A stretch of DNA of 41,106 bases, from positions 1 to 41,106 of the forward strand of contig CAMVLL010000010.1 in assembly GCA_947168315.1 (NCBI GenBank), written 5' to 3'. The DNA comes from an uncultured Bacteroidota bacterium. Lineage in GTDB: Bacteria > Bacteroidota > Bacteroidia > Bacteroidales > Bacteroidaceae. The number at the start of each line of letters is the position of its first letter. Positions within the stretch are counted from its first letter, which is position 1. Below are positions 7,872 through 38,838 of this stretch, one piece after another. Made by a program: the position numbers and the translations under genes. The notes beneath the pieces were generated by a model, which saw nothing but the letters and a program-made list of their open reading frames with translations, did no database searches and had not been told where the DNA came from.

Positions 7872-8966
7872 ATGAAGAAGCTGTTTTTGTCATTTATTGT
7901 GTTATTTGCAGGGTTGCAGGTAATGCAAGCACAAGACCTTAAAGTTAAGGAAGAGGGTAAGACGGAGTTTAACTCCCATTGGTTTATGCAACTTCAGGGT
8001 GGAGTTGGACATACGGTTGGTAGGCCAGGTTTTTCTGATTTGCTTACTCCCGCGGCAGCAGTCAATCTTGGTTATAAGTTCAATAAAGCTTTCGCATTAC
8101 GCTTTGGTGCAAGTGGTTTGCAAGCTAAAGGCGGTTGGCCGAATGATGTAATGTACAAGTATAACTACTTGCAAGGCAATGTTGATGCTATGTTTGATCT
8201 ATCTTCTATTTTGGCGGGTTGGAATCCAAGGCGTGGAATGAATGTTTATGGATTTATCGGTGCGGGTTTAAACTATGCATACGACAATGATGACGCTTTG
8301 GGCTTGAGATCTCGTGGATATAAATTGGATTATTTGTGGGATGATCATAAAGTCCTACCGGTAGGACGTGCAGGTTTGGGTATGAATTTGCGCTTGAGCG
8401 ACCGCGTCGGTTTGAATCTGGAGGCAAACGGTAATATGATGTCGGATAAATTCAACTCGAAGAGAGGTGGTAATCCTGATTTCCAGTTGAATGGCTTGAT
8501 CGGTTTGTCTATCGCATTGAGTAAAACCTACAAAAAAACTGAGCCCGTATATTATGATCCAGAGCCAGCACCTCGTCAAGAAGCGCCAAAACCAGTTGTT
8601 GTGAAGGAAGAACCGAAGCCAGCACCAGCTCCTGTGAAAGCTGAACCTTATCGGGTGAATGTTTTCTTCGATATTAATAAAGCAGATATCCGTGAAAGTG
8701 AAAAGCCTGCTTTGAATAATTTGATTTCATACATGAAAGAGAATCCGCAGAATTCTGTTTTGCTGACAGGTTATGCAGATAAGCATACGGGTAATGCGAA
8801 ACTTAATTCAGCACTTTCGAAGAAACGTTCTGCTGCTGTTGCTTCTTACCTGAAAAAGAATGGTATTGCTGCTGATCGTATTACAGTTGATGCCAAAGGT
8901 GACACTGTTCAGCTGTTCAGTGTTCCGGAACAAAACCGTGTTACGGTTTGTATCGTAGAAGAATAA
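7872..8966 (+). CDS. ompA: OmpA-family outer membrane protein
   Basis: This 364-residue outer membrane protein has a Sec signal peptide (about residues 1-20, ending VMQAQ). An N-terminal beta-barrel of amphipathic strands runs to about residue 215. A Pro/Glu/Lys hinge (residues 230-255, repeated EPKPAP-type words) leads to a C-terminal OmpA domain. That domain shows VNVFFDINKADI, then GYADKHTGNAKLN and LSKKRSAAVASYLKK; the Asp and Arg that bind diaminopimelate in peptidoglycan are present. Such proteins tie the outer membrane to the wall and are usually among the most abundant surface proteins. A strong promoter and a strong terminator flank it, so it is probably monocistronic. Confidence 0.93.
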   Translation: MKKLFLSFIVLFAGLQVMQAQDLKVKEEGKTEFNSHWFMQLQGGVGHTVGRPGFSDLLTPAAAVNLGYKFNKAFALRFGASGLQAKGGWPNDVMYKYNYLQGNVDAMFDLSSILAGWNPRRGMNVYGFIGAGLNYAYDNDDALGLRSRGYKLDYLWDDHKVLPVGRAGLGMNLRLSDRVGLNLEANGNMMSDKFNSKRGGNPDFQLNGLIGLSIALSKTYKKTEPVYYDPEPAPRQEAPKPVVVKEEPKPAPAPVKAEPYRVNVFFDINKADIRESEKPALNNLISYMKENPQNSVLLTGYADKHTGNAKLNSALSKKRSAAVASYLKKNGIAADRITVDAKGDTVQLFSVPEQNRVTVCIVEE

Positions 8967-36544: not shown

Positions 36545-36593
36545 ATAGGCTTTGTGGAAGCCTATCACACAGATAGTCTCACGACTGCTGTGT
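36545..36593 (-). other. Two hairpins at the end of the PqqD-type operon
   Basis: ATAGGCTT/AAGCCTAT with a 5-base loop lies at 36545-36565. ACACAG/CTGTGT with an inner AGTC/GACT lies at 36567-36593, starting at the stop codon of the last gene. With the terminator at 36446-36489 the transcript would end in three successive stems. Confidence 0.6.
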
Positions 36594-37156
36594 CAGGGGT
36601 AAATGTATTTATATGCGTTATTTCTTTTGGCTTTATAATCACGTACGATTTTATATAGATATACTGTATTGCTGATAGCGTACGGCTCAAGGTGTTTTCT
36701 CACTTCGTCCGTTGAACTACTTTCAAAGACTGCCACAAATGTCTTCCAAAGTGGAGCAATATCGGTAGTTAGATCACATTCGGTACAGTTAATATCTATT
36801 TTCAAATCATCTTTTTGTATGAAACAATGGCGGACTGGTGATCGTTTCCCTCCTGTTACGGGTTCATCGAACCACATTTTCCATCCATTTATTTCCAACT
36901 TATTGGTTGCCCGTCCTTTATTGTCAATAAACAATACAAAGAAATTCGAGTAAAAGCCTCGATGGAACGGATATTCGAAGTCGCAAATCACAATGGCATA
37001 CTTCGCATCCTCCAGATTATAGGGCATAGCCGAAATTTCTACCTCCTGCTGCTCCGTAATCGATACGAAACGAATGGAGGTAATATTGATCTCGGGATAT
37101 TGTTTCCTAATCTCGTTCGAGAACTCCTTCGCTATCTCAATATATTGCTTGTCCAA
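36593..37156 (-). CDS. Unrecognised protein, last gene of the PqqD-type operon
   Basis: I do not recognise this 187-residue protein. It has no signal peptide or membrane segment. It begins with an amphipathic helix (MDKQYIEIAKEFSNEIRKQY), then a mixed alpha/beta region with VICDFEYPFHRGFYSNFFVLF. The middle holds GWKMWFDEPVTGGKRSPVRH. Near residue 121 a short CTEC pair follows KIDIN. The last 50 residues are helical (RKHLEPYAISNTVYLYKIV). It starts 12 bases after the second leader-type protein and is likely cotranslated with it. A modification, immunity or chaperone role for the two leader proteins is only a position-based guess. Confidence 0.7.
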   Translation of the reverse strand: MDKQYIEIAKEFSNEIRKQYPEINITSIRFVSITEQQEVEISAMPYNLEDAKYAIVICDFEYPFHRGFYSNFFVLFIDNKGRATNKLEINGWKMWFDEPVTGGKRSPVRHCFIQKDDLKIDINCTECDLTTDIAPLWKTFVAVFESSSTDEVRKHLEPYAISNTVYLYKIVRDYKAKRNNAYKYIYP

Positions 37157-37168
37157 AAGAGAAAAACA

Positions 37169-37615
37169 TTAGGAATGGTTTGGCCTGTCTTGGTACCTGC
37201 TAAATGTTGGGTCATAAGTAAAATGTACATTTCCACCAACTAACCATCCCCAGCCATCATATTGTTCATGACCACTTGTACTTCTTCCATGAGCAACATC
37301 TATGTCACCAGAAGTAGCAGCGTATTGTGGATCATAAACACCTATAATGTATGGTTCCAATGTTACCATATCATGTTCTCTTGGATCGATGCCATCAGGC
37401 ACAGATAAATAATATGTTACAGGATGGTTGGTATGCCCATTCCAATGCAGGTCATATTCATGCGTATCAGGCGGGAAAGTGATATATCTTATATAATGAC
37501 CTTGTGAAGCTGATTCACCTAAACATTGTACCGTTGCTATCCAGCAAGAATTACAAAACTCTTGCGGTGTAAATACCTGTACGTCCAAATTCGGACAAAT
37601 CCATTTTTCTTTCAT
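37169..37615 (-). CDS. Leader-core type protein 2 (candidate RiPP precursor, His- and Tyr-rich core)
   Basis: This 148-residue protein has residues 1-20 almost identical to the neighbouring 37641-38084 protein: WICPN, one variable residue, DVQVFTPQEF. Cys7 and Cys24 are shared, and an extra Cys sits at 21 (FCNSC). After residue 24 there is no similarity to the sister. The remainder contains about ten His and eleven Tyr, several Asp-Gly turns, and GWGWLVGGNVHF near the C-terminus. There is no signal peptide. A constant N-terminus with variable remainder is the usual look of a leader and core. The first-domain conservation also holds at DNA level. Ordinary exported beta-proteins with a shared targeting tag are an alternative. 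Confidence 0.75.
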   Translation of the reverse strand: MKEKWICPNLDVQVFTPQEFCNSCWIATVQCLGESASQGHYIRYITFPPDTHEYDLHWNGHTNHPVTYYLSVPDGIDPREHDMVTLEPYIIGVYDPQYAATSGDIDVAHGRSTSGHEQYDGWGWLVGGNVHFTYDPTFSRYQDRPNHS

Positions 37616-37640
37616 TGTATTTATATTTTATGATTATTAT

Positions 37641-38084
37641 TTACGATTGGTTTTTTATGCTATGTTCAACAATTGTTCCAGAAATAACTTGATTACCACT
37701 ACCGTTTTTTGAATAACCTACAACTTTTCCTGCTTGAGGAGGTAATAATGTTGAGTAATAATTATATCTTGAAGTGCTTCCATTTTGAAGATCAGTATGT
37801 ATTTCAGAAGCGATGCTATTATCCGCTGCCCAATAGTATCCTATTAATATTGACAAATCAGGAATTGTAGTTATATCTCCATAATTAAATGTTTGACATG
37901 CGTGACCATAATCTTGTGCATCAAGAGATCCAATAATGCCAACATCCTCATAAAATTTGGTGTTAGAAGCAAATCTATGAGTTCCATCATAAGTGTATGT
38001 TATTTCAGCTTCGCATGCCGCTACGAATTCTTGCGGTGTGAATACTTGTACGTCCATGTTTGGACAAATCCATTTCTCTTTCAT
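37641..38084 (-). CDS. Leader-core type protein 1 (candidate RiPP precursor, Tyr/Ser/Asn-rich core)
   Basis: This 147-residue protein starts at MKEKWICPNMDVQVFTPQEF, then VAAC (Cys24). The same leader opens the next gene. An ATG three codons upstream (38093) is possible, but MKEKW is the start shared by both copies. Beyond residue 24 the sequence is unrelated to the sister: about eleven Tyr, many Ser and Asn, one further Cys (GHACQTF), a hydrophobic patch LSILIGYYW and a Pro-rich LLPPQAGK. It has no signal peptide. The gene is 20 bases after the PqqD-type gene and 25 bases before the second copy. By eye it is more A/T-rich than the flanking core genes. Confidence 0.75.
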   Translation of the reverse strand: MKEKWICPNMDVQVFTPQEFVAACEAEITYTYDGTHRFASNTKFYEDVGIIGSLDAQDYGHACQTFNYGDITTIPDLSILIGYYWAADNSIASEIHTDLQNGSTSRYNYYSTLLPPQAGKVVGYSKNGSGNQVISGTIVEHSIKNQS

Positions 38085-38104
38085 AGTGTTCATGATTTTA
38101 TGTT

Positions 38105-38527
38105 TTAATTGTTAGTACATTCTTGAATTAGCTTTAGAAAGCGGAAGCGGTTGACATACTCGCGGAATTGCAATTCAAGCTCTCCACTCTCGTCATTGAA
38201 TCGTTCTTTGGCGGAGTGAAGTGCTTCCCTAACTGACTTAGGTTGAGTAAATTGTTCCCAAATAAAGTAACCGGTCTTGTTCAATGAAATCATACCGTTG
38301 AATTCCTGTGCAAGGTCGCCTGTCGGTACAGCAAGGAACTCGTCGGAAACGGGTGTGATGACATAGTCTGGATTTACCAGAAAGACTATGGCATCCTCCT
38401 GTTCCTTGCATTGCCGTACCACATCTTGGAATTCTTGGTCGGGGAGTGAAGCAATCATGTCTCCTCTCATTCCTTTAGGAAAAGGAATGAAATGGAACAT
38501 GGGTCGGTTGAATACTTTTTTCATCAT
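38105..38527 (-). CDS. PqqD-family (RiPP recognition element) protein
   Basis: This 140-residue protein has a PqqD-type winged-helix domain in its C-terminal two-thirds: FLAVPTGDLAQEFNGM, then the hallmark LNKTGYFIWEQFTQPKSVRE and the long final helices (LELQFREYVNRFRFLKLIQE). PqqD domains bind the leader of peptide precursors and present them to a maturase. A 50-residue N-terminal extension (KVFNRPMFHFIPFPKGMRGD, EDAIVFLVNPD) is unusual for plain PqqD. No PQQ genes are nearby, so a PQQ role is excluded by context. It starts at an ATG at 38527, with a GTG two codons upstream as a weaker choice. It is the first gene of the operon. Confidence 0.85.
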   Translation of the reverse strand: MMKKVFNRPMFHFIPFPKGMRGDMIASLPDQEFQDVVRQCKEQEDAIVFLVNPDYVITPVSDEFLAVPTGDLAQEFNGMISLNKTGYFIWEQFTQPKSVREALHSAKERFNDESGELELQFREYVNRFRFLKLIQECTNN

Positions 38528-38838
38528 CTGCACTTTATCTTCTGCCTGTCCCCTAAGGCAGTAAAAATAAATGCGGTGTGGGAACTATTTTATGTTAATC
38601 CGATAGTCCTAGGCTTGGCTCCCAATAGTACGACGAAAAAACAATAGCCCACACCAAGATGATTCAGTACAAAAACCACACAAGTTATAGTAAAGAAATC
38701 AAATGATGCGGTGCTATTGCAATTACCTCCGTACTAAATTAAAACCGCCAAGTTTGAACTATGAAGATAATTTCAATAACACCTCATTATTAATATGTCC
38801 TTCCACAAACAGACCCCTGTCTGTCGATGAAATTAGTG
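38528..38838 (-). other. Long 5' leader of the PqqD-type operon
   Basis: About 300 bases lie between the predicted start site (near 38832) and the PqqD-type ATG. No gene of useful length is seen. Hairpins include ACAGAC/GTCTGT around AGGG (near the 5' end) and CTGCCT/AGGCAG (near 38540-38560, just before the gene). I recognise no known riboswitch class. Such length suggests RNA-level control. Confidence 0.5.

Follow-up and report, generated by a model that had tools for sequence, protein, structure and literature searches.

We analysed a stretch of 41,106 nucleotides from an uncultured Bacteroidota bacterium (assembly GCA_947168315.1, contig CAMVLL010000010.1), hereafter the window, focusing on a cassette of four minus-strand genes that encode, in this order, a PqqD-fold protein, two precursor-like proteins, V1 and V2, and an orphan protein, U. 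The genome that carries this cassette is referred to as the own genome. An earlier note on the same DNA, made from its letters alone, had described four minus-strand genes with short gaps, and this is what we find, the gaps being 11, 25 and 12 bases:

38105..38527, minus strand: long-form PqqD-fold protein of ~140 amino acids (PF05402 match; alignment with short PqqD proteins; pairing with leader genes)
37641..38093, minus strand: V1, precursor-like protein of 150 amino acids, C-terminus -KNQS (leader at 38013-38093, last residue Cys)
37169..37615, minus strand: V2, precursor-like protein of 148 amino acids, C-terminus -RPNHS (leader at 37544-37615, last residue Cys)
36593..37156, minus strand: U, orphan protein of 187 amino acids with a TTG start (only in the own genome among 151)

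The product of the first gene matches Pfam PqqD (PF05402) with 34.3 bits against a cut-off of 23.4, confirming its original assignment; the start is taken at the ATG at 38527, the automatic open reading frame (ORF) call beginning at a GTG at 38533. V1 and V2 have the N-terminus MKEKWICPN[M/L]DVQVFTPQEF in common, plus a Cys at the same position, and then become unrelated, as the earlier note had also read them: when the remaining parts, the bodies, are aligned locally without the last six residues, the score is reached by 432 of 500 shuffles. Over codons 1-20, the two genes differ by seven synonymous and one non-synonymous changes, followed by five non-synonymous differences in codons 21-26; the scarcity of non-synonymous relative to synonymous changes in the leader codons suggests selection on the peptide. 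Neither V1 nor V2 yielded anything above the Pfam and NCBIfam cut-offs (Pfam gave sub-cut-off matches only) or in PHROG and PADLOC at 0.1. The same is true of U, which had previously been called unrecognised and which has no PDB match better than 0.23. Single-sequence structure models of V2 and U were uninformative (predicted local distance difference test scores of 44 and 46, respectively).

A leader family paired with long-form PqqD proteins

A profile of the shared N-terminus (17 sequences, including V1 and V2; 26 columns) has hits at E<1e-5 in nine of the 151 family genomes, spread over three genera, with eight matches in the own genome; among genomes drawn from the order, matches are found in 2 of 393, the own genome included. 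Matches with E between 1e-3 and 1e-2, mostly covering 13-17 of the 26 positions (21 in one case), were not counted. Given this recurrence in the family, the similarity between the N-termini of V1 and V2 is not due to chance. The consensus is roughly K-x-x-[WY]-x-x-P-x6-F-x-P-x-E-[YF]-x-x-x-C, with P, F and C invariant in the 17 sequences.

The leader genes are closely linked to a distinct form of PqqD. Searching the 151 family genomes for PqqD produced 17 matches, nine of which were read as long forms, and one more long form came from the named relative RUG12482. Each of these 10 long-form genes, found independently of the leader, has a leader-gene neighbour no more than 450 bases away, in loci from two sampled genera plus RUG12482. 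An eleventh long form, at locus L134, was reached through its leader gene and is therefore not independent for this count. Seen from the other side, 35 leader genes were scored by a motif search of the fetched loci with redundant loci omitted, a sample that favours genomes known for leader genes; 13 of them have a long PqqD gene at a distance of 650 bases or less, one has a short PqqD gene within 300 bases, and nine further ones have a radical S-adenosylmethionine (SAM) gene within 2 kb. In the 393 genomes from the order, the long-form profile finds a clean long form in the own genome only. Eighteen of the 392 others give a PqqD match, mostly of the core alone, and a longer match in G367 is interrupted by four stops; the 18 genomes were treated as other systems, their gene neighbourhoods not having been read. 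The window PqqD protein has no plasmid match and no viral-contig relative, and a single match in phage records (24% identity over residues 55-136).

The ~50-residue N-terminal extension of the window PqqD protein opens with MKKVFNRP and thereby resembles the precursor leaders. An opening of the type M-[KHN]-x-x-[YF]-x-[KR]-[PS] is present in 7 of the 11 long forms (window 38501-38527, and loci L024, L026, L028, L029, L092 and L134), the four without it being those of genus g17. Among 677 other ORFs, PqqD proteins apart, this box, which was derived from the very PqqD proteins that it counts, occurs in one leader gene and one unrelated ORF. The pairing described above supports reading the shared N-terminus as a leader that goes with a dedicated long-form PqqD protein.

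The family is also marked at its other end. Every complete member that was scored (33 of 33, leaving out L024_1 and L025_1, which are cut by contig ends) terminates with Ser, and 24 of the 33 have Asn at position -3, counts that are uncorrected for kinship; as a control, Ser is the last residue in 18 of 415 other ORFs from the same loci, counting non-overlapping ones of 120 amino acids or more. Two leader genes that the motif missed end in Ser (L082:7268) and Asn (L087:5637). The bodies of complete members span 95-149 residues and are rich in W, T, H, G, N and Y and poor in L, K, R and I. Some fall into related groups, and most groups, including those of V1 and V2, are singletons. For alignable pairs, the non-synonymous rate (dN) is lower than the synonymous rate (dS) in all that gave a value, six of seven, with dS near saturation in most, indicating that those bodies are maintained proteins. 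Inspection of the leaders by eye revealed no ordinary signal peptide.

Three side observations concern small genes. At position 1 of both L024 and L025, the contig breaks off within a precursor gene or at its end, a pattern that variation of cores within the sampled population could produce. In the relative G538, a degenerate additional leader copy with an in-frame stop lies beyond the cassette (L134:2850-2918). Another small protein family, with the pattern GEGDVY..YEPECYNAIM ... NSHQG[S/T]AG, is encoded at L026:10103-10474 and L043:4250-4612. It is perhaps another peptide system; its L043 copy is followed by a gene with a weak likeness to HprK.

Bodies lacking evident similarity at orthologous loci, and accompanying RNA elements

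Comparison with G538 provides a view of how the bodies change. Four of its loci are orthologous to own-genome cassettes, with flanking DNA ~80% identical, three flanking proteins 85-87% identical and PqqD proteins 83% and 79% identical. The leader residues are 63-85% conserved at all four loci, and at all four the DNA similarity ends at the body; it resumes past the cassette at three, and at the fourth (contig C47 versus L092) the own contig stops within the body. Local alignment of the bodies minus the last six residues is no better than that of shuffles at three of the four loci and marginal at one: the score is reached by 63 of 500 shuffles for L024_1497/L133 and by 11 of 500 for the marginal pair, L025_1/L135, and the C47/L092 test covers 18 residues only. 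Global alignments, which include the shared tail, give z-scores of -1.4 to 4.7 against shuffles, with 4.7 for L024_1497/L133 and 4.1 for L025_1/L135. With leader and flanks kept and no evident similarity between the bodies at the four loci, the cores look swapped; at the two loci with z-scores above 4, very fast divergence rather than exchange may be responsible.

The identity profile of C47/L092 runs at 95% over part of the 5′ RNA described below, 76.7% over most of the PqqD gene and 98.1% over the 54 bases that end it; it is 99.3% in the intergenic stretch and 100% over leader codons 1-18, before dropping to 63% in codons 19-27 and 43% beyond. This pattern fits a recent exchange in which the leader region served as a homology arm. 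The fragment of the C47 body clusters with bodies from C133 and genus g2; the L092 body shows a weak affinity to bodies from g17. Since the bodies cannot be aligned, a diversity-generating retroelement was not taken up as an explanation, with no search aimed at a reverse transcriptase.

What follows the precursors is not constant either: at L134, another ORF occupies the position that U has in the window. At E<=0.001, U is found in only 1 of the 151 family genomes, the own one. Thus, U is not conserved, and there is no support for it as a fixed member of the cassette. Of the interpretation offered in the earlier note, the part in which a leader-like N-terminus is tied to PqqD is supported by the 10 of 10 long-form loci, and the inclusion of U is not supported. 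Possibly, U is an accessory or immunity gene of the window copy alone. Beside the cassette lie genes for a metallo-hydrolase and a Cthe_2159-type protein, which are kept in the relative at 87% identity and are taken to be unrelated to it.

Several RNA elements accompany the cassettes:

38575..38784, minus strand: structured 5′ RNA with a long rod-like hairpin, upstream of the PqqD gene (fold z-score -5.2)
L026:7881-8034 and 8733-8948, L024:764-1002, L092:354-591 and L134:4545-4753: further copies of the 5′ RNA
36564..36596, minus strand: 3′ hairpin with a GUGA tetraloop at the cassette end
L024 ~1451, L025 ~1006, L133 ~210, L134 ~2525 and L135 ~9340: further loci with the GUGA-loop hairpin
36545..36565, minus strand: terminator-like hairpin after U (weak; the pattern scan gave 2 in the region versus 1.7 expected from shuffles)

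The 5′ RNA, of ~210 bases, aligns in six copies, four from the own genome and two from the relative, and its fold is stable also elsewhere (z-scores of -7.6 for the C90 copy, -7.4 for the C47 copy and -2.9 for a C133 region). The GGUGUGGGCUAUUG arm of the rod can pair alternatively with AUAGUUCCCACACC, so that the long rod competes with another fold, a stem with a T-rich stretch behind it. In the rod, two-sided changes preserve 9 of 42 consensus pairs, but pairing is lost in other cells; with a covariation term of 0.01, the alignment lends no net covariation support. For the alternative stem, which is absent from the list of the terminator scan, two-sided changes occur at four pairs, and a few cells are broken. 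A covariance model recovers the six seed copies and, weakly, L135 (1.8e-5) and one C133 region (4e-4), as well as, elsewhere, L080 (1.4e-5) and L081 (0.13), and nothing in the loci of G097, a genome of the same genus, or of g17. No Rfam family was matched above its gathering score, and the weak matches were judged to be due to chance. Judging from its fold, the 5′ RNA would be attenuator-like. Six loci in the own genome and G538 have the GUGA-loop hairpin behind the cassette, with differing outer stems; the motif was drawn from the same loci in which it was scanned, and it was not found at C90, L092 or the other loci scanned. It possibly represents a 3′ boundary or an RNA element.

Candidate enzymes elsewhere in the genome and the interpretation of the cassettes

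No maturase, peptidase or exporter was recognised beside the four window genes, and the absence of a maturase that the earlier note had pointed out holds for the window. For the genome, the statement needs qualification, because another contig, C37, encodes a candidate set: a PF14907 nucleotidyltransferase, a short PqqD, a radical SAM protein and an HprK/ScmC-like protein, side by side. Polysaccharide genes (DegT aminotransferase, Polysacc_synt_2) flank these candidate maturation genes, and a NusG-like protein (PF02357; L027:9782-10306) is encoded near them. The distribution of the radical SAM protein follows that of the leader: at E<=1e-35, relatives occur in 7 of the 151 family genomes, which are seven of the nine leader genomes and none of the 142 others (Fisher p=1.2e-10, uncorrected for kinship among the three genera). 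The closest HprK relatives (E<=2.3e-27) are found in the same seven genomes, the next best match being at 8.8e-20. Furthermore, genus g2 has four radical SAM genes with leader genes close by, five in all, at distances of 6 to 139 bases, and in genus g17 (L076-L078) an S24-type peptidase gene adjoins that of the kinase, in loci that also carry an ABC transporter and a sugar transferase, as assigned by position and one Pfam check (L076). In the rows of the HprK alignment that are truly HprK-like, the His, the Walker-A Lys and one Asp can be made out, with no position assigned to the fourth residue and no lasso kinase among the sequences aligned. The alignment (A5) contains a wrong antisense ORF (L034:5508-6374), which lowers its conservation. 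A PDB sequence search with the kinase from L036 returned nothing useful. The candidate enzymes, the C-terminal Ser, the structured 5′ RNA and the paralogous cassettes all go beyond the earlier note.

Reading these sequences together, we consider it an even call that the cassettes represent a RiPP-like (ribosomally synthesized and post-translationally modified peptide) leader/adaptor system with protein-sized, exchangeable cores and enzymes acting in trans. The window would then carry one cassette among several, operating in the manner of a RiPP pathway with cores of unusual size. To judge from its fold and gene pairing, the PqqD-fold adaptor would bind the constant leader of V1 and V2; the ~120-residue bodies would be the product part, and recombination in the conserved leader/5′ and 3′ regions would exchange them between genomes. 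The adaptor would pass the precursor to enzymes encoded elsewhere, in the own genome most likely the radical SAM protein, short PqqD, HprK/ScmC-like kinase and PF14907 nucleotidyltransferase of C37. By analogy with paeninodin and pseudomycoidin, the C-terminal Ser, mostly within N-x-S, is the residue that the kinase/nucleotidyltransferase pair would likely phosphorylate or glycosylate. Export might rely on an S24/S26-type peptidase and an ABC transporter of the sort encoded next to the g17 kinase, and the 5′ RNA that precedes several units could mediate attenuation, perhaps with the NusG-like protein of C37.

The closest chemical precedent comes from lasso peptides: in a review, lasso peptide kinases are described as phosphorylating a conserved C-terminal Ser, with a nucleotidyltransferase homologue adding hexoses (PMC9266682). 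Paeninodin and pseudomycoidin share with the present system the C-terminal Ser, a PqqD-type adaptor and the presence of an HPr-kinase-like protein and a nucleotidyltransferase in the genome; here, by contrast, the precursors comprise ~150 amino acids and the kinase and nucleotidyltransferase are encoded away from the cassette. Neither a lasso cyclase nor a B2 protease was recognised in the loci read, no search having been aimed at either. Pathways that rely on a discrete RiPP recognition element (RRE), such as PqqA/PqqD/PqqE or those with lasso peptide B1 proteins, are alike in the constant leader followed by a variable core, in the separate small PqqD-fold protein encoded beside the precursor and, in one related genus, in radical SAM genes beside leader genes. 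They differ in that, here, the bodies reach 95-149 residues and lack evident similarity at orthologous loci and the adaptor has ~140 amino acids. SynChlorMet cassettes (ScmC/ScmD/ScmE/ScmF) resemble C37 in bringing together radical SAM, PqqD and HprK/ScmC-like proteins; however, the C37 matches stay far below the curated NCBIfam cut-offs (35.1 of 125 bits for ScmC, 75.0 of 400 for ScmE and 75.5 of 400 for ScmF). Pilin cassettes and hsdS shufflons similarly combine a constant 5′ part, a replaced 3′ part and retained flanking homology, but the exchange inferred here is between two genomes rather than within one culture.

A number of observations weigh against a leader/adaptor system served by the enzymes of C37. 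An RRE-dependent RiPP cluster would include a modifying enzyme, and none was recognised beside the four genes, which is why we say that the cassette works like such a pathway rather than being a member. Conversely, C37 (20.5 kb, a polysaccharide cluster) harbours no leader gene, and its proteins fall below every NCBIfam cut-off. At looser limits, HprK-like proteins appear in 121 and the nucleotidyltransferase in 63 of the 151 family genomes. HPr kinases have two adjacent Asp residues at a site where the present kinase has NGDR. An exception is G097 (99% complete), which has two PqqD/precursor pairs with products ending in Ser and lacks a C37-like radical SAM protein at 1e-35 (no candidate at first look), an HprK at 1e-5 and a nucleotidyltransferase at 1e-20; it has 16 other radical SAM matches. 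Serine modification of the lasso type is thus probably not the whole story. In G538, the radical SAM match is partial (1.5e-13), and G044 (87% complete) has no radical SAM or HprK match and carries a close nucleotidyltransferase (2.4e-78). In addition, 12 of the 35 leader genes, some on short contigs, are near neither PqqD nor a radical SAM gene, making for a mixed answer to the question, raised in the earlier note, of how regularly leader and PqqD genes are neighbours. Together with the three genomes, these lone genes suggest that the enzymes may serve some lineages only or be replaced elsewhere. Finally, between the window and L134 the leader codons (6 synonymous and 3 non-synonymous changes in 24) are no more constrained than those of PqqD (40 and 24 in 140).

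The same facts bear on the alternatives. The two pairs of G097 without close copies of the C37 enzymes would be readily accommodated by a secretion or folding system that involves no chemical modification, in which the leader is a sorting signal, PqqD a chaperone and N-x-S a mark read by an exporter, the bodies being displayed or released. The composition of the bodies fits extracellular beta-rich proteins, the leaders show no ordinary signal peptide by eye, and the g17 kinase adjoins a transporter and a peptidase. We regard this as possible but doubtful, given the radical SAM genes beside the g2 leader genes, the co-occurrence in seven of nine leader genomes and the description, in PMC7470986, of discrete PqqD-like proteins as leader binders that recruit modifying enzymes. 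It seems rather improbable that the cassettes encode polymorphic toxins or bacteriocins, with the bodies as diversifying antibacterials and U, or the ORF at its position in the relative, as cognate immunity. Body and downstream ORF do both differ between the window and L134 within ~80% identical flanks, and hypervariable cores are typical of conflict systems. However, no conserved downstream partner was found: U is unmatched in the 150 other genomes at 0.001, and L092 and L135 have no close same-strand partner (at L133, the contig ends 268 bases on). Nor do V1 and V2 belong to a family recognised in the four databases at the limits given above. That these are unconnected small genes, with PqqD serving another pathway and the shared N-terminus reflecting local duplication, would agree with the lack of recognised maturation and export genes next to them but is strongly disfavoured by the pairing of leader and long-form PqqD at all 10 loci, and we consider it very improbable.

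Returning to the leader/adaptor system, we recognised no description of this leader/PqqD family in the open-access literature. Leader plus RRE adaptor is a known kind of arrangement; the protein-sized cores, the replaced bodies and the two-ended tag would be new. A more far-reaching version, which we think unlikely as a whole, is a display or effector platform: one set of trans enzymes, together with cassette-specific PqqD adaptors, would process whole ~120-residue domains tagged at both ends by the leader and the N-x-S tail; the bodies would be swapped as modules by recombination at the leader and the 3′ region; several units would be under a shared attenuator-like RNA; and the Ser would be joined to phosphate or sugar, perhaps linking the protein to cell-surface polysaccharide.

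If the leader/adaptor reading is correct, RiPP-style leader recognition would reach whole protein domains rather than just short peptides, and natural module swapping would tell the constant part from the cargo. The ~24-residue leader and N-x-S tail would then constitute a testable delivery or modification tag, and the Ser common to the ends of unrelated bodies would pose a sharp chemical question. For the Bacteroidales, the cassettes would be a source of genome-specific proteins.

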